From assembly GCF_026126405.1 (NCBI RefSeq), contig NZ_JAFMTQ010000013.1, positions 1-64,000 of the forward strand: a stretch of 64,000 nt of DNA, in the 5' to 3' direction. Below the pieces are notes generated by a model. The model did not search any database, had not been told where the DNA came from, and saw only the letters and a list, made by a program, of their open reading frames with translations. The translations under genes and the position numbers were made by a program. Shown here in pieces: positions 9,241 to 30,803 of this stretch. The DNA is from Aureitalea sp. L0-47 (lineage in GTDB: Bacteria > Bacteroidota > Bacteroidia > Flavobacteriales > Flavobacteriaceae). The stretch's first letter is position 1. Every line of letters starts with the position of its first letter.

Positions 9241-9927
9241 ATGCACAGTACCAGAAATAATCTTCAGGTTCTCTATGAGGATAACCATCTCATTGTCGTA
9301 AATAAGCGCCCAGGCGATATCGTCCAGGGAGATAAGACCGGCGACAAGCCGCTTTCAGAGGTGGTAAAAGAATATATCGCTGAAAAATACAATAAGCCGG
9401 GAGCTGTCTTTCTGGGTGTTGTCCATCGACTCGACAGGCCCACAAGTGGCGTGGTCTTATTTGCGCGTACTTCCAAAGCTTTGGGGCGTATGAACAAATT
9501 ATTTTCAGAAAGAGATACTAGAAAAATCTATTGGGCGGTCGTTGAAAACAGGCCACCCAAAAGGAAAGACACGCTGGTTCATTATATGAAACGCAATCCG
9601 AAGCAGAATAAATCTTATGCCCATAAGAATGAAGTTCCGGATAGTAAAAAGGCCATTCTAAATTACTCAATCGTCAAAGAACTGGATAACTACTATTTAC
9701 TGGAAATTGAACTGGAAACTGGCAGACATCATCAGATCCGGTCCCAACTTTCAGCTATTGGATGTGTTATAAAAGGCGATCTGAAATACGGTGCCAAGCG
9801 AAGTAATAAGGATGGAAGTATTCATCTACATTCAAGAGAACTTACATTTATTCATCCGGTAAAAAAAAAGGAAATTAAAATTGTGGCTAAACCGCCTTCA
9901 GATGCTATTTGGAATAGCTGCGTTTAG
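9241..9927 (+). CDS. RluA-family pseudouridine synthase
   Basis: A 228-residue enzyme that isomerises uridine to pseudouridine in RNA. It carries the strand motif VLYEDNHLIVVNKRPGDIVQ and the catalytic HRLDRPTSGVVLFAR motif with the active-site Asp. The later ETGRHHQIRSQLSAIG segment is a family hallmark. There is no N-terminal S4 domain, which fits short RluA-type members; the target site (rRNA or tRNA) cannot be read from sequence. It lies 14 bases after panB. Its stop overlaps the stop of the convergent response regulator by 4 bases. Confidence 0.9.
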   Translation: MHSTRNNLQVLYEDNHLIVVNKRPGDIVQGDKTGDKPLSEVVKEYIAEKYNKPGAVFLGVVHRLDRPTSGVVLFARTSKALGRMNKLFSERDTRKIYWAVVENRPPKRKDTLVHYMKRNPKQNKSYAHKNEVPDSKKAILNYSIVKELDNYYLLEIELETGRHHQIRSQLSAIGCVIKGDLKYGAKRSNKDGSIHLHSRELTFIHPVKKKEIKIVAKPPSDAIWNSCV

Positions 9928-10574
9928 ATCTCGATAATATTGTTCTTCAGAGCGTAGATCACCAATCCTACCCTATTCTTTATATGCAGTCGATTAAAGA
10001 GCTCTTGTCGGTAGCCATCGATGGTCTTAGGACTCAAATTCATCACGTCGGCGATCTCCTTGTAGGTCATCTCGGAACATGCCAATTGCATGAAAGTTAG
10101 CTCGTTCTCCTTGAATTTGACCTCCACCTCCTTATTGGACGGCTGTATGGAATGAAGCAATGTAGCTGCTACCTTTTCTGAATGATAATACCCTCTATCC
10201 ATTACCTCAGAGAGCGCTATCTTTAGTTTGTCCGGGTGGATATCTTTGAGCAAGTAGCCTTTCGCGCCATTCTGAAGCATCTTCAGAATAACTTTCTCAT
10301 CGTCCTCCATGGAAAGTGCAAGGAATTTTATTTGCGGGTAGTTTTCGTTTAACCAGGCAGCGGTTTCAAAACCATCCATTACGGGCATATTGATATCAAG
10401 GAGTACGATATCCGGTGCAACACCGTTCGCCTTTAGTTTATGCTGAAGTTCTTTTCCATTACTGGCGTGAAATAAAACCTTGAACCCATCAAATGAATTG
10501 ATCAGCTTTTCGAGAGAACCGGAAAGCAATAGATGATCATCAACAATGGCAACAGTATGCAGACGTTGCTTCAT
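9924..10574 (-). CDS. LuxR/NarL-type response regulator, module copy 1
   Basis: A 216-residue two-component regulator and the last gene of the first four-gene signalling module. The receiver domain has acidic pocket residues Asp12-Asp13, phospho-acceptor Asp60 (IVLLDINMP) and conserved Lys110 (GYLLKD). A GerE-type helix-turn-helix follows (ELTFMQLACSEMTYKEIADVMNLSPKTIDGYRQEL), so the output is DNA binding. The start ATG overlaps the kinase stop (ATGA), which points to translational coupling and a dedicated pair. Its targets are unknown. The paralogue at 28259-28927 occupies the same place in the second module. Confidence 0.93.
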   Translation of the reverse strand: MKQRLHTVAIVDDHLLLSGSLEKLINSFDGFKVLFHASNGKELQHKLKANGVAPDIVLLDINMPVMDGFETAAWLNENYPQIKFLALSMEDDEKVILKMLQNGAKGYLLKDIHPDKLKIALSEVMDRGYYHSEKVAATLLHSIQPSNKEVEVKFKENELTFMQLACSEMTYKEIADVMNLSPKTIDGYRQELFNRLHIKNRVGLVIYALKNNIIEI

Positions 10575-11347
10575 GACTTCAGAGGATATAATAAGTTAAG
10601 TTTTGTTCCTTTACCGGGATCAGAGGTTAATTCGTACTCCGCTCCAAGAAGATCTGCTCTACCGCGCATATTGTGCAGTCCGGAATTCCCGGCATTCACC
10701 GAAGTATCGAACCCAACTCCATCATCATCAACATTGATCTCCAACTCTTGTTCCCGATAACATAAATGTACAAATAATTTATCGGCTTTGGCGTGTTTTA
10801 TAACATTGGAGAAGAATTCCTGGAGAATTCGGAAAATAATGATCTCGTCTGCGCTTGGTATAGTAACTGGCTCTCCCTCAATTTTCAAGTCTGCATGAAG
10901 AAAATTGAGTCGGTTGAACCGTTCCAATTCTGTACGAACCGATTCGATAAGGCCGTTATTTTGGATCACGTCTGTATTCAAGGTCCTGGAAAGTGCTCTT
11001 ACCTCCTGTACTGTGGCAGCCACAACGTCCTTGGTCTCTTTGATCTGCGACTTCAATTCTTCTGGGACATGGTTTTGTACCATGTTCAGCTGAATGTTGG
11101 CAACAGAAAGTAACTGCCCTACATTGTCGTGTAATTCCCAGGCAATGTTCTTTAGAGTCTGTTCCTGAATCTCGAGTCGGGAGTTAGTGAGCTCTGTTTC
11201 GAACTTCTTTTCGGCTTCTAGGCGCTCTATAATCAGTTTATTCTTTCTTCGCTGAAAGGCGATTACAAATATTACCACGAATGCCACCAAAATAAATATG
11301 ATGACTACAAAGTAGAGTATTAGGAGGAAGTTTTCTTTCTGGAGCAT
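10571..11347 (-). CDS. NarX/DesK-type sensor histidine kinase, module copy 1
   Basis: A 258-residue kinase with one N-terminal membrane helix (residues about 8-31), a short coiled coil (about 35-65), a HisKA_3 dimerisation segment with His73 (NIAWELHDNVGQLL), and an HATPase_c domain with Asn181 (FFSNVIKHA) and the DDDGVGF box (207-213). It has essentially no extracytoplasmic sensor of its own. The preceding gene, a seven-helix membrane protein overlapping by 28 bases, is a natural candidate for the missing input domain. It should phosphorylate the regulator encoded next. The paralogue is at 28974-29774. Confidence 0.92.
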   Translation of the reverse strand: MLQKENFLLILYFVVIIFILVAFVVIFVIAFQRRKNKLIIERLEAEKKFETELTNSRLEIQEQTLKNIAWELHDNVGQLLSVANIQLNMVQNHVPEELKSQIKETKDVVAATVQEVRALSRTLNTDVIQNNGLIESVRTELERFNRLNFLHADLKIEGEPVTIPSADEIIIFRILQEFFSNVIKHAKADKLFVHLCYREQELEINVDDDGVGFDTSVNAGNSGLHNMRGRADLLGAEYELTSDPGKGTKLNLLYPLKS

Positions 11348-12033
11348 ACTATAAATCCGATTGTAAATAATGAGTACATAAAAATGTTCGTGTAAAGGTA
11401 GACAGCATTATGCAGCTTGATAAAAAATGTATTTTCCTCACTGAAATATTCCGAAAAAATGTCAACAGGAGTAACACACAAATTAAATACCATTAAGCCA
11501 ACAGAAATGTACATAGGGAGAAATTTTTTCAGTTTCAAGATTAAGTCGGTTTGTAAGAGTTCAAAATAGAATAGAATAATACACACAATTAATAGGAGCG
11601 TACCAACCATTATTGTGTATAAAGCATTAGATTCGAAATAAACACCACTTAAAACTAAATTTATAGCCGCGGAAATACCGAAAATCGACACTGCAGCTTT
11701 CAAAGCAAACCTCCATTTCTGATTTCTCAAGAAATGAATAAAATAAAGAGATAAGAAAATATAACTATATAAAACGTATGGATTGTATAACCATTTATGA
11801 TCCTCGAACACTGTATTTTCAACAAACGAAAAATATTTGAAATCAGAGAAGTGTGCAATTGGTGCGTACGCCCCAATAACTTCAACAAAAAAAGTGATCC
11901 ACAGAAAAATTACTAAATGCCGATTCATTCCACGTGCCTTTGTCCTAAAAAGAAAGAAACTACCTGCCAATGCGGCAAATAGTTCCATTATGGTAATAGG
12001 TAATGTGTTGGCAAGAAAATCGGAAAAACTCAA
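11320..12033 (-). CDS. Seven-helix membrane protein of unknown family, module copy 1
   Basis: A 237-residue integral membrane protein with seven hydrophobic segments, for example PITIMELFAALAGSFFLF, VLYSYIFLSLYFIHFL and YLYTNIFMYSLFTIGFIV. I do not recognise the family. The start is a TTG at 12033, two bases after the stop of the small-protein gene (TAG AA TTG), and the 3' end overlaps the kinase gene by 28 bases, so all are translationally linked. The protein at 29808-30434 has the same length class, helix count and a similar last helix (NAVYLY versus NANVVLY) and sits in the same gene order. Inference: it is the membrane receptor or input unit for the adjoining kinase. Confidence 0.75.
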   Translation of the reverse strand: MSFSDFLANTLPITIMELFAALAGSFFLFRTKARGMNRHLVIFLWITFFVEVIGAYAPIAHFSDFKYFSFVENTVFEDHKWLYNPYVLYSYIFLSLYFIHFLRNQKWRFALKAAVSIFGISAAINLVLSGVYFESNALYTIMVGTLLLIVCIILFYFELLQTDLILKLKKFLPMYISVGLMVFNLCVTPVDIFSEYFSEENTFFIKLHNAVYLYTNIFMYSLFTIGFIVCSRKKTSS

Positions 12034-12035
12034 TT

Positions 12036-12389
12036 CTAATAGACGTTAGGAGGCCATCCATTCGTGCCTCTGTTCAATGGTTCAAGATTGTAGTTGTTTG
12101 GGGAATTGGAATTTGCACCATAAGTAGGTGCTAAAAATACTGTCGCTGTACTCTTCGAATCTTCTCCTGTAGCCGCAAAGTAAATTCGAATCCCAGGGTT
12201 ATCAATATCTGCATCTGCCGATCCGTTCTTTACGTATTCTATAAATTCCTCCATTTCAGCCAAAGTAAAGACAACATCAGATATTTCGGGGTCTTGCCCT
12301 CTGACTAACTTGGGGGCTCTTGAATTTTGCCAATTCTGGTAAAGAGTCTTTGCTTCGTTAACAGTAATGCAATTTTGAGGTTTAGCCAT
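12036..12389 (-). CDS. Small soluble protein of unknown family, module copy 1
   Basis: A 117-residue protein with no signal peptide or membrane segment; it is the first gene of the signalling module. I know no family name. It aligns by eye with the 121-residue protein at 30438-30803: an N-terminal ITxxxAKxxxxNWxN motif, a central NPxxRxY segment, and a C-terminal run with LxPxxxxTxG followed by a proline pair (WPPNVY here, PCPPYCDD there). This copy has lost the two C-terminal cysteines. It starts with ATG at 12389 and ends two bases before the TTG of the membrane protein. Possible roles are an intracellular ligand-binding or modulator protein for the kinase, or the module's own output; neither is proven. 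Confidence 0.75.
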   Translation of the reverse strand: MAKPQNCITVNEAKTLYQNWQNSRAPKLVRGQDPEISDVVFTLAEMEEFIEYVKNGSADADIDNPGIRIYFAATGEDSKSTATVFLAPTYGANSNSPNNYNLEPLNRGTNGWPPNVY

Positions 12390-12500
12390 TATTGAAATTT
12401 TTAAGGATTAAGCTCTAAAAATAAACAATTCCCTGAGGAGGCAATGGATTTGATCACAAATACAGGAAAACTCCCGTAGTTGTATTCAGGTAAAACCCTC

Positions 12501-24940: not shown

Positions 24941-25744
24941 CTATTTAACGATGATAGGCTTACTAGTTGTCCCGTAAGTCGTTTCAAGTTTTACGATATA
25001 GGTTCCGGCATCCATAATCACCGGAACCGAAATACGATCACTGTCAAAAGAGTTCTCATAAACACGTTTTCCTAAAATATCGAAGATAGTAAGTGAAGCA
25101 GGAACAGCTTCAGGAAGCGCAATGGAGAGGATGCCTTGTGAGGATACAGGATTTGGAGCTATAACAATAGAGTCCATAAATATTGCCTCTTCAATAGCCA
25201 AAACACTACACTCCATAGGCGTTGGATCTACACCAGTGGGTAGCGCATTCTCAAAAGTTGAAACTCCGGCAATAGGCCAAATATCCAAAACGATGATCTC
25301 GTTGTCGGGATTAATAACGCAATACGTAGGGTAGGCAACAATTCCGAAATCATCATCAACGGCTCCCGCACCTCCATCGGCCGAAACGGCAGGCGCATGG
25401 TTAAATGGTCCGCCATAGGTTTGCTCAAAGAGAATTACCTGCTGATCGTTGTCGGTCCCATTATTTACGGACAAACAATATATATCCCCTTCGTTACAGC
25501 CGTATTTATCATGAAATTCGTTGAAGATGGGGGTTGTAGTCTGACACGGAGGGCAGGTATCAAAAAAGAAATCTAAAAAAACGTATTTACCTTCCGCGGT
25601 AATACTGTAAAGATTATGAATGTTCCCATCAGTATCAGTAAGTGTGAAATCGTTCACAACATCTCCAACATTGTAGTTGTTTACCTGGGAAAAGCTAAGC
25701 GAACTTATTATCAAAGCTGCAATCAGTAATGTAATTTTCTTCAT
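24941..25744 (-). CDS. Secreted thioredoxin-like protein with type IX sorting domain
   Basis: A 267-residue protein in three parts. Residues 1-20 are a signal peptide. Residues about 25-180 are a TlpA/AhpC-like thioredoxin fold with the redox pair CPPC (Cys64, Cys67) in FFDTCPPCQTTTP. Residues about 190-267 are a C-terminal domain of the type IX secretion kind, with APNPVSSQG, FDILGKRVY and the final GTYIVKLETTYGTTSKPIIV pattern. The protein should therefore cross the outer membrane and stay at the cell surface or be released. Redox-active thioredoxins sent to the outside are unusual; the target may be exported cysteine-rich proteins. It converges with the aspartoacylase-like gene, 49 bases apart. 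Confidence 0.88.
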   Translation of the reverse strand: MKKITLLIAALIISSLSFSQVNNYNVGDVVNDFTLTDTDGNIHNLYSITAEGKYVFLDFFFDTCPPCQTTTPIFNEFHDKYGCNEGDIYCLSVNNGTDNDQQVILFEQTYGGPFNHAPAVSADGGAGAVDDDFGIVAYPTYCVINPDNEIIVLDIWPIAGVSTFENALPTGVDPTPMECSVLAIEEAIFMDSIVIAPNPVSSQGILSIALPEAVPASLTIFDILGKRVYENSFDSDRISVPVIMDAGTYIVKLETTYGTTSKPIIVK

Positions 25745-25987: not shown

Positions 25988-26344
25988 CTATTCGCCAAAC
26001 TCAGCTTGAATTTGTGCCAGAACAGATGGCAAAAGATCAAATACTATTTTATTTTCGAATCGAATTACTTTGAATCCCTTATCCTCGAGAATTTTAGTTC
26101 GCCATTTATCATATTCCTCACCATTTGGAGTAAAATGACCTTGACCATCCAATTCAATTATTAGTTTTTCACTGGCGCAGTAGAAGTCTACAATGAAATT
26201 AAGTATACTATGTTGTCTGCGAAACTTCCTACCACAAAGCTGTTTACTTTTTAAGTAGTGCCACAAATATGCCTCAGCAGGTGTGAGATTACTTCTTATT
26301 TCCTTTCTTCTAGACCTTAAATATCTTCTGTTATGCGTTTTCAT
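25988..26344 (-). CDS. DUF559 protein, probable PD-(D/E)XK-type nuclease
   Basis: A 118-residue protein of the DUF559 family, related to very short patch repair (Vsr-like) endonucleases. The N-terminus RRKEIRSNLTPAEAYLWHYL is typical, and FIVDFYCASEKLIIELDGQG holds the likely catalytic Asp and Glu of the nuclease core. The helical C-terminus ends QIQAEFGE. Function is not established for the family. The gene sits between two near-identical direct repeats and next to a further hairpin element, with no other gene in the interval, so it looks like a small self-contained cassette. It is not part of the comM or thioredoxin units. Confidence 0.85.
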   Translation of the reverse strand: MKTHNRRYLRSRRKEIRSNLTPAEAYLWHYLKSKQLCGRKFRRQHSILNFIVDFYCASEKLIIELDGQGHFTPNGEEYDKWRTKILEDKGFKVIRFENKIVFDLLPSVLAQIQAEFGE

Positions 26345-28258: not shown

Positions 28259-28927
28259 TTATTCAATAATGATAGGAGGCACAAGGTCGTTCTGAATGGC
28301 AAATATCACTAGGCCGGCGATGTTCTTAACACCTGTCTTGATGAGTAAGTTCTTTCGGTGTACTTCAACGGTTCTCGGACTAATAAAAAGCTTCTCTCCA
28401 ATTTCGGAAGTCTTGTATTGTTTGCAGATGAGTTCCAGTACTTCGCCTTCTCTTTCCGTAAGAAATTCATCGTCGAAAGGGGTTTTCCCCCCTTCATTGG
28501 TAGTTGCGTAACGGCAGTTCAGTATATCCATCACGTACTTGTCATAATGAAAACCATTGTAGAACACCTGTTTGATTGTGTGTATCACCTTATTCGGAGG
28601 GGAATTCTTCACCAGGTAGGCAGATGCCCCTACATCAATCATATTTCGTATAAATGGTTTGGAATTATAGGTAGTTAATGCAATAACTCCTATTTCGGGA
28701 TATTGCTGATGAATCACTTTGGTAGTTTCCACCCCATTAAGCAGCGGCATTTTAATATCGGTAAGTACGATATCCGGTAATGGATCCGATCGCTTCAACA
28801 GCTCCAACAGTTCCTGACCATTTCCAGCTTCAAAACTAATCTGGATCTCCGAATCCTTCGATAAAATATGAGCGAGCCCGACGCGAAACAATTCTTCGTC
28901 ATCTGCAATGGCAAGATTGATGTTCAA
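28259..28927 (-). CDS. LuxR/NarL-type response regulator, module copy 2
   Basis: A 222-residue regulator and the last gene of the second signalling module. Receiver residues are Asp9-Asp10, phospho-acceptor Asp57 (IVLTDIKMP) and Lys107 (AYLVKN). The output helix-turn-helix is LTEREGEVLELICKQYKTSE followed by ISPRTVEVHRKNL, a standard GerE domain. The start is a TTG at 28927; no ATG or GTG in frame gives a better N-terminus. Three tandem copies of a 9-mer directly precede the start. It matches the copy-1 regulator in architecture but is clearly diverged in sequence, so the two probably control different genes. Confidence 0.92.
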   Translation of the reverse strand: MNINLAIADDEELFRVGLAHILSKDSEIQISFEAGNGQELLELLKRSDPLPDIVLTDIKMPLLNGVETTKVIHQQYPEIGVIALTTYNSKPFIRNMIDVGASAYLVKNSPPNKVIHTIKQVFYNGFHYDKYVMDILNCRYATTNEGGKTPFDDEFLTEREGEVLELICKQYKTSEIGEKLFISPRTVEVHRKNLLIKTGVKNIAGLVIFAIQNDLVPPIIIE

Positions 28928-28954
28928 GGTTTGTTTGGTTTGTTTGGTTTGTTT
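28928..28954. repeat. Tandem 9-mer (GGTTTGTTT) x3 at the regulator start
   Basis: Three exact copies read GGTTTGTTT on the plus strand, so the transcript carries AAACAAACC three times immediately before the TTG start. In the reading frame it would add Lys-Gln-Thr units without frameshift. A change in copy number would alter spacing between the kinase stop and the regulator start. Confidence 0.85.
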
Positions 28955-28973
28955 GCTCCCTAAAGTATAAAAT

Positions 28974-29774
28974 TTAGCTTAAATCTATCTGAATTTGAAC
29001 GAATAATCCTTTACCGGGACTACTCTCCATACTCAGTTCACCTTTTAGTATTTCTGTTCTGTTCTCCATACCGCTTAGACCGAGACTACGGGCCATTTTC
29101 GCCTCCTCCAAATTAAAACCTTTCCCATCGTCCCGATAAGTGAGAAATATGGTTTCGTTCTCCTTAGCCAGACTAAGGTTAATTTTATTTGCTTCGGAAT
29201 ATTTAATAGCATTGTTAAAAAGTTCCTGGGCTATTCGAAACAAATGAAGTTCTTCATCTTTACCCAATATGTCCGATGGATAGCTATAATTTTCGACTAT
29301 TTCGAACCTGCCGGTTTCGCTGAGTTCGTCACAAAGCTCCTCCAGCGCTGCCTCTAGCCCAAACTTTTCTAAGGTTGGTGGTAAAAGGTCGTGGGCTATC
29401 TTTCTCGAATTTTCAAGCACCGTAGATGTAACGTTACGAATGCTCTCAGCTATCTTTTCGGCCTCCTCCAGAGTGTTTGTGGTATCCGAAAGCATATTGG
29501 CATTCAAGGAAATCACGTTGAGTTTTGAGCTAATGGCGTCGTGCATATCCTGGGCAATACGCATCCGCTCTTCTTCCTGGGTGATGATTATAGATTGTAG
29601 GATCTCCTTCTGATGCTCGATCTCCCGATTGGCTTTTTCGAGTTCGGTCTTAATGATCCGCCGACGAGAAAAGTAGAAAAAAAGCACAATGGCAAAGGCC
29701 ATTAGAACCAGCAATCCTATTGCATAAAACAATACATTAACTATCTGCAACGCTTCCGTTCCATTCTCTTCCAT
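28974..29774 (-). CDS. NarX/DesK-type sensor histidine kinase, module copy 2
   Basis: A 266-residue kinase with a single N-terminal membrane helix (about 13-35), a coiled coil (about 40-70), the phospho-acceptor His78 in RIAQDMHDAISSKLN, and an HATPase_c domain with FNNAIKYSEAN and YRDDGKGFNL. As in copy 1 it lacks an outer sensor domain and is preceded by a seven-helix membrane protein gene (33 bases upstream). It should signal to the regulator 46 bases downstream. The matching architecture and gene order show that the two modules share an origin, although sequence identity by eye is moderate. Confidence 0.92.
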   Translation of the reverse strand: MEENGTEALQIVNVLFYAIGLLVLMAFAIVLFFYFSRRRIIKTELEKANREIEHQKEILQSIIITQEEERMRIAQDMHDAISSKLNVISLNANMLSDTTNTLEEAEKIAESIRNVTSTVLENSRKIAHDLLPPTLEKFGLEAALEELCDELSETGRFEIVENYSYPSDILGKDEELHLFRIAQELFNNAIKYSEANKINLSLAKENETIFLTYRDDGKGFNLEEAKMARSLGLSGMENRTEILKGELSMESSPGKGLFVQIQIDLS

Positions 29775-29807
29775 ATGCTTACGAAGTTAGTAATTTGAAG
29801 AAACAAT

Positions 29808-30434
29808 CTAGTTTCTAATTGATTTCCTGTAATTGCGAAGCCATTCAATCAAGATCAAGATTTGAAAGATTAGGTAAAGAACAACATTAGCATTGGTTAA
29901 TAAGGTTGTAATTTCTGATGATAACTGGGGATCAAAGACCATATTCCCGGAGGCGAATATCAAAGAGCTTGATAAAAAATATACTAGAATTCCCACGTTC
30001 ACAATAGTAAATTCCAATTTGCGGGTAAGTGCTTTGTACAAAAATACAATAGAGTAGACGATGATGATCGTATGAGTAACGAACATGCCCAGTTCGTTGT
30101 ACTTGCTGTACAATTGCGGGGAAGAAAAATATTGATAGGCTAAAAAAGTGAGTACTAAACCCAAAATCCAATAAATGATCTTGTGTTTTATAAATTCATA
30201 GAAGAAAAAGGATAGTAATATGAATTGCCCGATAAAATAGTAATGCGATAAAAACAGATTTGAGAGATCCGTTGTTTTTATAATTACCAGCGACAGAATT
30301 TGAATTACTGAAATTAAAAATAAATAGGCAGTAAAAAACCTATAGGCTTTACTATTTCTAGTAAAACCTATAAGATATATGATAAATAAAACCGCTGAAA
30401 AATAGAGCGTGAAGTTTATTATGTCTATGAACAT
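29808..30434 (-). CDS. Seven-helix membrane protein of unknown family, module copy 2
   Basis: A 208-residue membrane protein with seven hydrophobic segments, including INFTLYFSAVLFIIYLIG, YFIGQFILLSFFFYEFI, MFVTHTIIIVYSIVFLY and NVVLYLIFQILILIEWL. The family is not recognised. The start ATG is three bases after the stop of the small-protein gene. It corresponds in place, helix count and several spaced residues to the protein at 11320-12033. It is most simply read as the sensory or ligand-binding unit working with the kinase, but transport or scaffold roles are open. The loops are short, so any signal is probably sensed within the membrane or by the small cytoplasmic partner. Confidence 0.75.
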   Translation of the reverse strand: MFIDIINFTLYFSAVLFIIYLIGFTRNSKAYRFFTAYLFLISVIQILSLVIIKTTDLSNLFLSHYYFIGQFILLSFFFYEFIKHKIIYWILGLVLTFLAYQYFSSPQLYSKYNELGMFVTHTIIIVYSIVFLYKALTRKLEFTIVNVGILVYFLSSSLIFASGNMVFDPQLSSEITTLLTNANVVLYLIFQILILIEWLRNYRKSIRN

Positions 30435-30437
30435 AAA

Positions 30438-30803
30438 TTACGATAAAGCACTATTATCGTCGCAGTATGGCGGACAAGGCCTAGTGAAATCCCAAATACT
30501 ATTTCCACCATCGGTGGTATTTTCGTCTGCCGGAAGAAGGTCGCGGTAGACAGTATTTCCGGCCTTATCAGTTTCCTGGTTTGTACCCACAATAATCAAT
30601 TTTTCAGTATTATCGGAAGGATCTATCCCCAGGTAAGCACGTGCCATTGGATTACCACCTTGGTTCTGAATCTCAGAAATAGCTCCCTGGAGATCCTGTA
30701 TGGGTATCAAAAATGCCTTCGCACTGGTTGAAGGGGCATTCCTCCAATTCGCGGTCCATGATTTGGCCGTAGCCAGTGTAATTTTTTTGTCAGCTTGACT
30801 CAT
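30438..30803 (-). CDS. Small soluble protein of unknown family, module copy 2
   Basis: A 121-residue soluble protein that opens the second signalling module. It has no signal peptide. Conserved with the copy-1 protein are KITLATAKSWTANWRNA (ITxxxAKxxxxNWxN), GNPMARAYLG (NPxxRxY) and LLPADENTTDGG near residue 90. The C-terminus reads RPCPPYCDDNSALS, with two cysteines flanking a proline pair that could bind metal or form a disulfide. No named family comes to mind. The gene begins with ATG about 38 bases past the terminator of the pgi operon, so the module has its own promoter. Confidence 0.75.
   Translation of the reverse strand: MSQADKKITLATAKSWTANWRNAPSTSAKAFLIPIQDLQGAISEIQNQGGNPMARAYLGIDPSDNTEKLIIVGTNQETDKAGNTVYRDLLPADENTTDGGNSIWDFTRPCPPYCDDNSALS

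Follow-up and report, generated by a model that had tools for sequence, protein, structure and literature searches.

The 64,000-nucleotide stretch of Aureitalea sp. L0-47 DNA considered here (the window; contig NZ_JAFMTQ010000013.1, positions 1 to 64,000) carries two four-gene sets on its minus strand, at 9924-12389 (set 1) and 28259-30803 (set 2), which lie 16 kb apart and share one order: a small protein (SM), a membrane protein (TM), a histidine kinase (HK), and a response regulator (RR). An earlier note on this DNA had read them as a duplicated signalling module, and all eight genes were found as it described, down to the length of the small proteins and the few bases that separate each from its membrane protein gene (Table 1). 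Both kinases match HisKA_3 and HATPase_c and both regulators match Response_reg and GerE, all above the curated Pfam cut-offs, and the phosphotransfer histidines and aspartates are present in the sequence, in agreement with the description of sensorless one-helix kinases followed by NarL-type regulators. Many bacterial kinases carry a sensor of their own; among the eight HisKA_3 kinases of this genome, a long N-terminal region is absent only from HK1 and HK2, the remaining six having open frames of 621-1017 residues. SM1, SM2, TM1, and TM2 gave no Pfam match at E≤1 and no NCBIfam match above cut-off, which bears out the remark that their families could not be named.

Table 1. Features of the two gene sets and of the region upstream of set 1 (aa, amino acid residues).
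Feature	Position	Strand	Description
SM1	12036..12389	-	117 aa; type 1 tail, C-terminal GWPPNVY; 2 bases from TM1
TM1	11320..12033	-	237 aa; TTG start; seven helices from homology to TM2 and inspection by eye; 28-base overlap with HK1
HK1	10571..11347	-	258 aa; HisKA_3; one N-terminal helix; no sensor domain; His73; 4-base overlap with RR1
RR1	9924..10574	-	NarL-type (Response_reg + GerE); Asp60
SM2	30438..30803	-	121 aa; type 2 tail containing CPPYC; 3 bases from TM2
TM2	29808..30434	-	208 aa; seven-helix; predicted N terminus outside, C terminus inside
HK2	28974..29774	-	266 aa; HisKA_3; one N-terminal helix; no sensor domain; His78
RR2	28259..28927	-	NarL-type (Response_reg + GerE); longest frame starts TTG; Asp57
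Paired site GGGTTTTACC-N14-GGAGTTTTCC	12465..12498	-	upstream of SM1; candidate regulator binding site

Because pairwise BLASTP is weak (E = 0.009 for SM1 against SM2 and 0.30 for TM1 against TM2), the relation between the two sets is detectable only at the level of profiles, for which the SM and TM of each type were aligned with their relatives. Type 1 and type 2 profiles scored 50.7 against each other for SM (E = 1.8e-8) and 73.9 for TM (E = 1.4e-10, over 203 columns), as compared with 14-17 for reversed profiles, at most 21 for column-shuffled profiles (40 each), and 12-16 for other multi-helix membrane families. A chance likeness of membrane proteins is ruled out by these controls, which together span 12-21; circularly shifted profiles, which scored 70 and 51, are not a valid control because most of the homologous stretch stays intact in them. 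Some proteins are matched by both profile types, one in locus L081 by TM1 (4.5e-7) and TM2 (1.4e-13) and one in L006 by SM2 (4.5e-7). Judged by their profiles, then, the small proteins of the two sets are homologous and so are the membrane proteins, a relatedness on which the earlier note had let its proposal depend. In a quick kinase tree (52 rows) type 1 and type 2 separate, with Shimodaira-Hasegawa-like approximate likelihood ratio (SH-aLRT) support of 99 and 79, respectively; a tree in which all cassette kinases form one clade apart from the genome's six other kinases is not the best one and was not rejected by test (p = 0.334). Since homology is seen at the profile level and the kinases separate by type, the sets are, on this comparative evidence, two ancient paralogous lineages. 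Recent tandem or segmental duplication is ruled out by the lack of BLASTP similarity between the membrane proteins and by the same separation of the kinases, so that the word "duplicated" stands for the relatedness of the copies and not for a recent event.

The four-gene order is widely kept. Thirty named loci were obtained from a profile scan of genome contigs with the type 2 SM alignment, and in 26 of the 26 that are uncut (some of them close kin) the genes run SM-TM(-TM)-HK-RR on one strand; the other four end at a contig end. A survey of 149 Flavobacteriaceae genomes, one per genus, found TM in 104; SM occurred in 99, each of which also had TM. Among the matches listed, an SM lies within 3.5 kb on the same strand for 139 of 150 TM and upstream of the TM in 118 of 125 adjacent pairs, and a listed TM lies within 1 kb for 127 of 150 SM. 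Phylum-wide, TM occurs in at least 81 of 395 genomes, a lower bound because few candidates were scored per genome; seven of these genomes are outside the class, the best with E = 1.8e-22. We also hand-picked 40 regions, 20 outside and 20 inside the family, the latter including seven TM regions with no listed SM nearby. The kinase beside TM was HisKA_3 in 33 of the 40 and another kinase in two (L208 and L218), so that here, as in the uncut named loci, homologues are usually found next to such kinases, as the proposal of the earlier note required. At a looser threshold three of the seven regions (L219, L221, and L222) do have an SM beside TM and a fourth (L216) has an SM-like gene on the opposite strand; none was seen in L217 (at a contig end), L218, or L220. 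Four of the 40 regions (L223-L226, from four genomes) hold an SM and one or two TM with no adjacent kinase and may represent a third lineage or orphan receptors; by eye, the SM N terminus is lipoprotein-like in L223, L224, and L226.

HisKA_3 is the usual kinase behind SM and TM, and it is not the only one. In L127 and L130 the pair stands with a one-helix LytS-type kinase (His_kinase/LytS) and a LytTR regulator, in L208 an SM and three TM are followed by a PAS-HisKA kinase, and in L218 a TM without a recognised SM is followed by a HisKA_2 kinase and LytTR. Because LytS and PAS-HisKA kinases also follow SM and TM, the pair looks like an exchangeable input part. Several TM may accompany one kinase (L101, L128, L133, L213, and L214), some sets combining a single SM and a single kinase with two to four TM and others having several SM and TM (L128 and L133). 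Such rows comprise four TM in L213, three in L214, and four TM with two SM in each of L128 and L133; with one kinase gene apiece, they suggest mixed receptor complexes or several inputs per kinase.

The seven helices claimed for the membrane protein were recovered in an AlphaFold2 model of TM2, which consists of seven long helices with a predicted local distance difference test (pLDDT) score of 91.9 and a predicted template modelling (pTM) score of 0.88, and were assigned to TM1 from its homology to TM2 and by inspection; six segments in each protein had been marked by a crude hydropathy scan. Loops 1, 3, and 5 and the C terminus of TM2 are rich in lysine and arginine and the other loops are not, and the N terminus is therefore predicted to lie outside and the C terminus inside. 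When the model was compared with the PDB by VIA, all 50 rows were G protein-coupled receptor (GPCR)-fold receptors, GPCR-like proteins, or a designed GPCR-like fold, with Z of 11.7-13.6 (at 13.6, a root mean square deviation of 4.2 over 201 residues), in a comparison that covered the Foldseek top 1000 only and at Z values that may reflect a merely common helix arrangement without kinship. The helix arrangement of TM2 is predicted to be GPCR-like. The best Foldseek E for TM2 was 0.096, in a list that also includes rhodopsins and zinc transporters, and no sequence match of TM to a GPCR was found in Pfam or in a PDB profile search; PDB sequence searches with the SM and TM profiles reached best E values of 0.042, 0.058, and 0.43. 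Matches among TM members were isolated and weak, such as that of one of 30 to MnhB (E = 0.0008 in Pfam and 0.0021 in NCBIfam).

The small protein is marked by a conserved C-terminal tail, PCPPxCD..S.LN in type 2 and GWPPxxY in type 1, and in most distant relatives of type 2 CPxxC or CPP is retained. Block conservation in SM2 is 0.66 for residues 101-110, 0.62 for 111-120, and 0.64 for 31-40, which places the tail among the most conserved parts. The AlphaFold2 model of SM2 (pLDDT 86.3, pTM 0.78) has two helices and a beta sheet, with moderate to good confidence in the tail; it found no clear PDB match (Foldseek best E 0.026, VIA best Z 2.9), which does not prove a new fold. Neither SM1 nor SM2 has a leader, the open frames of only 123 and 125 residues leaving no room for a signal peptide, and 93 of 122 distinct SM-like domains fell into the leader class "none" under a crude rule. 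Its "lipo" class is doubtful for L053, L110, L112, and those with an anchor ending in FCPR, and N termini were therefore judged by eye. So judged, the SM N terminus is lipoprotein-like inside complete sets in L072, L205, L219, and L222 and outside such sets in L134, L159, and L216, and in L030, L031, L138, and L157 a membrane anchor ends in FCPR. From these N termini, one module apparently uses its SM in different compartments across relatives.

We consider it probable that each set is a two-component system with a split receptor, SM and TM forming a unit separate from the kinase. The earlier note had suggested as much from the window, and its suggestion gains from the constant order of the uncut loci and from the kinase families that can take the place of HisKA_3. 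In such a system TM, with its seven helices and an N terminus predicted to lie outside, would be the membrane receptor, and SM would be its dedicated partner, carrying or modulating the stimulus and most likely docking on TM through the conserved tail. The change in TM would be relayed through the single membrane helix of the kinase, and the sensorless kinase would then phosphorylate the NarL-type regulator, as is established for these families. Distances among 18 type 2 sets, corrected for the PGI-like and GAPDH-like neighbour genes and judged against 999 permutations, gave correlations of 0.51 for HK-RR (0 permutations as high) and 0.30 for SM-TM (7 as high); these two strongest links fit an input pair and an output pair, the other links not being cleanly sorted and 18 sets being few.

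Several observations weigh against a split receptor of this kind. The remaining correlations were 0.18 for TM-HK (53 of the 999 permutations as high), 0.22 for TM-RR (4), 0.19 for SM-RR (24), and -0.07 for SM-HK (702). No fusion of TM to a kinase was present among the matches listed, whose open frames reach at most 304 residues, and neither the SM2 nor the TM2 model reached E≤0.001 for any PDB entry in Foldseek. A better-conserved outer face of TM was looked for as a sign of an outside partner and not seen; in TM2, conservation is slightly higher in the inner half (0.533 vs 0.481 in the outer, p = 0.02). The small proteins of this genome are leaderless as opposed to the lipoprotein-like or anchored forms of some relatives, and the side on which SM acts is uncertain for that reason. 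A kinase is not adjacent to TM in 5 of the 40 hand-picked regions (L220 and L223-L226), and in 17 of 19 relatives at a locus with rluA-like and panB-like genes a NarL-type regulator was not found in the fetched stretch (that of L217 being short).

The absence of a leader and the conserved inner half would both suit a different role for the small protein, namely that of a cytoplasmic inhibitor or adaptor acting on the kinase or on the inner face of TM, with TM alone as the receptor and the lipoprotein forms derived by a change of side. The large share of SM-like domains classed "none", as far as the crude rule can be trusted, points the same way. However, lipoprotein-like SM occur inside complete sets as well as outside them, and SM and HK distances are uncorrelated, where a small protein acting on the kinase is concerned; we regard this as an unlikely alternative that nonetheless deserves some weight. 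The small protein might also be the precursor of a quorum-type signalling peptide whose conserved tail is released and sensed. The place of the tail at the very C terminus (CPPxC in type 2, PPxxY in type 1) and its rank among the best-kept parts of SM2 would suit a peptide, but the specificity regions of pheromones vary and this tail differs little within each type, the remainder of SM is likewise conserved and can be modelled well, and a peptidase, exporter, or other extra gene was not seen to recur inside the cassettes. Of the explanations considered, we find this one the hardest to believe.

In a further possibility, TM works as a transporter or enzyme and the kinase senses its working state, SM being a substrate-binding or accessory subunit. 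Transporter-coupled sensing is laid out in this way, with a sensorless kinase and a multi-helix protein as its partner, and tandem TM genes and the kinase-free SM-TM regions would suit a membrane protein with a job of its own. On the other hand, TM1 and TM2 match no Pfam family, the matches of their relatives to known families are sporadic, and the seven-helix arrangement with its N terminus outside speaks against such a function, leaving this explanation improbable, if somewhat less so than a peptide precursor. We retain the split receptor as our working explanation. A bolder extension of it, which we offer only tentatively and would not yet bet on, is that SM and TM form a widespread, undescribed class of stand-alone seven-helix receptor with a small co-receptor, GPCR-like in layout, which would serve three or more distinct histidine kinase families (four, counting the TM that lacks a recognised SM) across the Bacteroidota.

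Sensing here seems to fall to a unit of two proteins apart from the kinase, which serves several kinase families and is present in about two thirds of the sampled genera (99 of 149), and the two families of this unit are nameless in Pfam and NCBIfam. If the split receptor is real, a class of kinases regarded as "sensorless" would gain an input, the coupling of receptor to kinase would become testable by exchange of parts, and a stand-alone seven-helix receptor design would be added to those of bacteria.

Upstream of set 1 there is a paired GG-N6-CC-like site (Table 1). Of 17 upstream regions taken from close type 1 sets, nine hold similar pairs with a spacer of 12-15 bases, placed 107-133 bases ahead of SM, as compared with 0.005 expected from shuffles, in a test that is partly circular because these sequences also supplied the pattern and come from related genera. 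None was found in 40 other upstream regions, 19 of which have a NarL-type regulator; four of the 40 overlap with some of the 17, and the 21 labelled as lacking such a regulator include L127 and L130, with LytTR, and L150, with a lower-scoring regulator. Because the site is absent from the 19 NarL-bearing regions, the "no" labels are imperfect, and regions overlap, we do not connect the site with whether a regulator is present. There is weak evidence that the pair is a candidate RR1 site, through which the type 1 regulator may perhaps also act on its own operon. Type 2 sets instead have a hairpin after the pgi-like gene, which we read as a terminator.

The names of neighbouring genes used here (rluA, panB, pgi, and GAPDH) are our assumptions from their sequences. 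A pgi-like gene lies near the type 2 set in 19 of the 30 named loci; because 11 of the 30 have no gene of the pgi cluster in the fetched flank (some flanks being short), the cassette occurs in other settings too. Type 1 sets stand beside counterparts of the rluA-like and panB-like genes of the window in 19 of the longer regions. At this locus (e.g., L136-L140, L158, and L160-L162) an SM or TM stands with a kinase, and the partner regulator may be elsewhere. Kinase motifs were read out for 13 of the 17 regions in which no NarL-type regulator was found, and the N box was seen in 13, the G box in 12, and ELHD in 10; in the other three of the 13 the ELHD pattern had matched elsewhere first. Two further genes of the window may be mentioned. 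A stand-alone protein of 118 residues at 25988-26344 presumably resembles a DUF559-type endonuclease, and a thioredoxin-like protein at 24941-25744 has, by eye, an apparent C-terminal sorting domain of type IX secretion.

Among the titles and abstract openings covered by our literature search, no description of an SM-TM-HK-RR cassette was found, and one may exist. Seven helices invite comparison with several known receptors. Microbial rhodopsins bind retinal at a lysine in helix 7, and residues 173-201 of TM2, which form that helix, contain none. In Agr-type peptide signalling the membrane partner is an AgrB-type peptidase, and neither TM1 nor TM2 has any Pfam match at E≤1. With GPCRs TM shares the number of helices and the predicted orientation, and its helix arrangement may be similar, the VIA rows pointing that way and the Foldseek result not being significant; the output here is a histidine kinase, and a sequence match was not found. 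The 7TMR-DISM proteins (PF07695) are seven-helix bacterial receptors usually fused to an output and to an N-terminal sensor domain, whereas TM stands alone. Their profile aligns to that of TM with an hhalign score of 26-28 (E = 0.002-0.004), as compared with 17-18 for reversed and 12-16 for unrelated membrane families; PF07695 is matched weakly by 4 of 39 TM members (best E = 0.0034) and not at E≤1 by TM1 or TM2. A distant link of TM to 7TMR-DISM is possible on these scores.

BtsS is described as a seven-transmembrane LytS-type kinase that binds pyruvate, with receptor and kinase in one polypeptide (PMC10653868). Its seven-helix receptor with LytS and LytTR parts resembles the SM-TM pairs of L127 and L130, in which receptor and kinase are separate proteins and an SM is added. 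The closest parallel is the LiaFSR system of envelope stress in Firmicutes. LiaS is a HisKA_3-type kinase without a large sensor and LiaR a NarL-type regulator, the same types as those of the cassette, and LiaF is not known to be a seven-helix protein. In the enterococcal LiaFSR-LiaX system, control of the kinase is proposed to lie with a membrane protein, LiaF, and a surface protein, LiaX, LiaF carrying PF09922 and LiaX PF13349 (PMC10269926). The Pfam lists for SM and TM contain neither of these domains, PF09922 being absent at E≤1 from TM1, TM2, and 39 TM members. What the two systems appear to share is a layout in which the membrane protein is distinct from the kinase and the regulator and is joined, in enterococci, by a separate surface protein that is proposed to act on it. 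By this analogy, the SM-TM-HK-RR cassette would work most like LiaFSR-LiaX.

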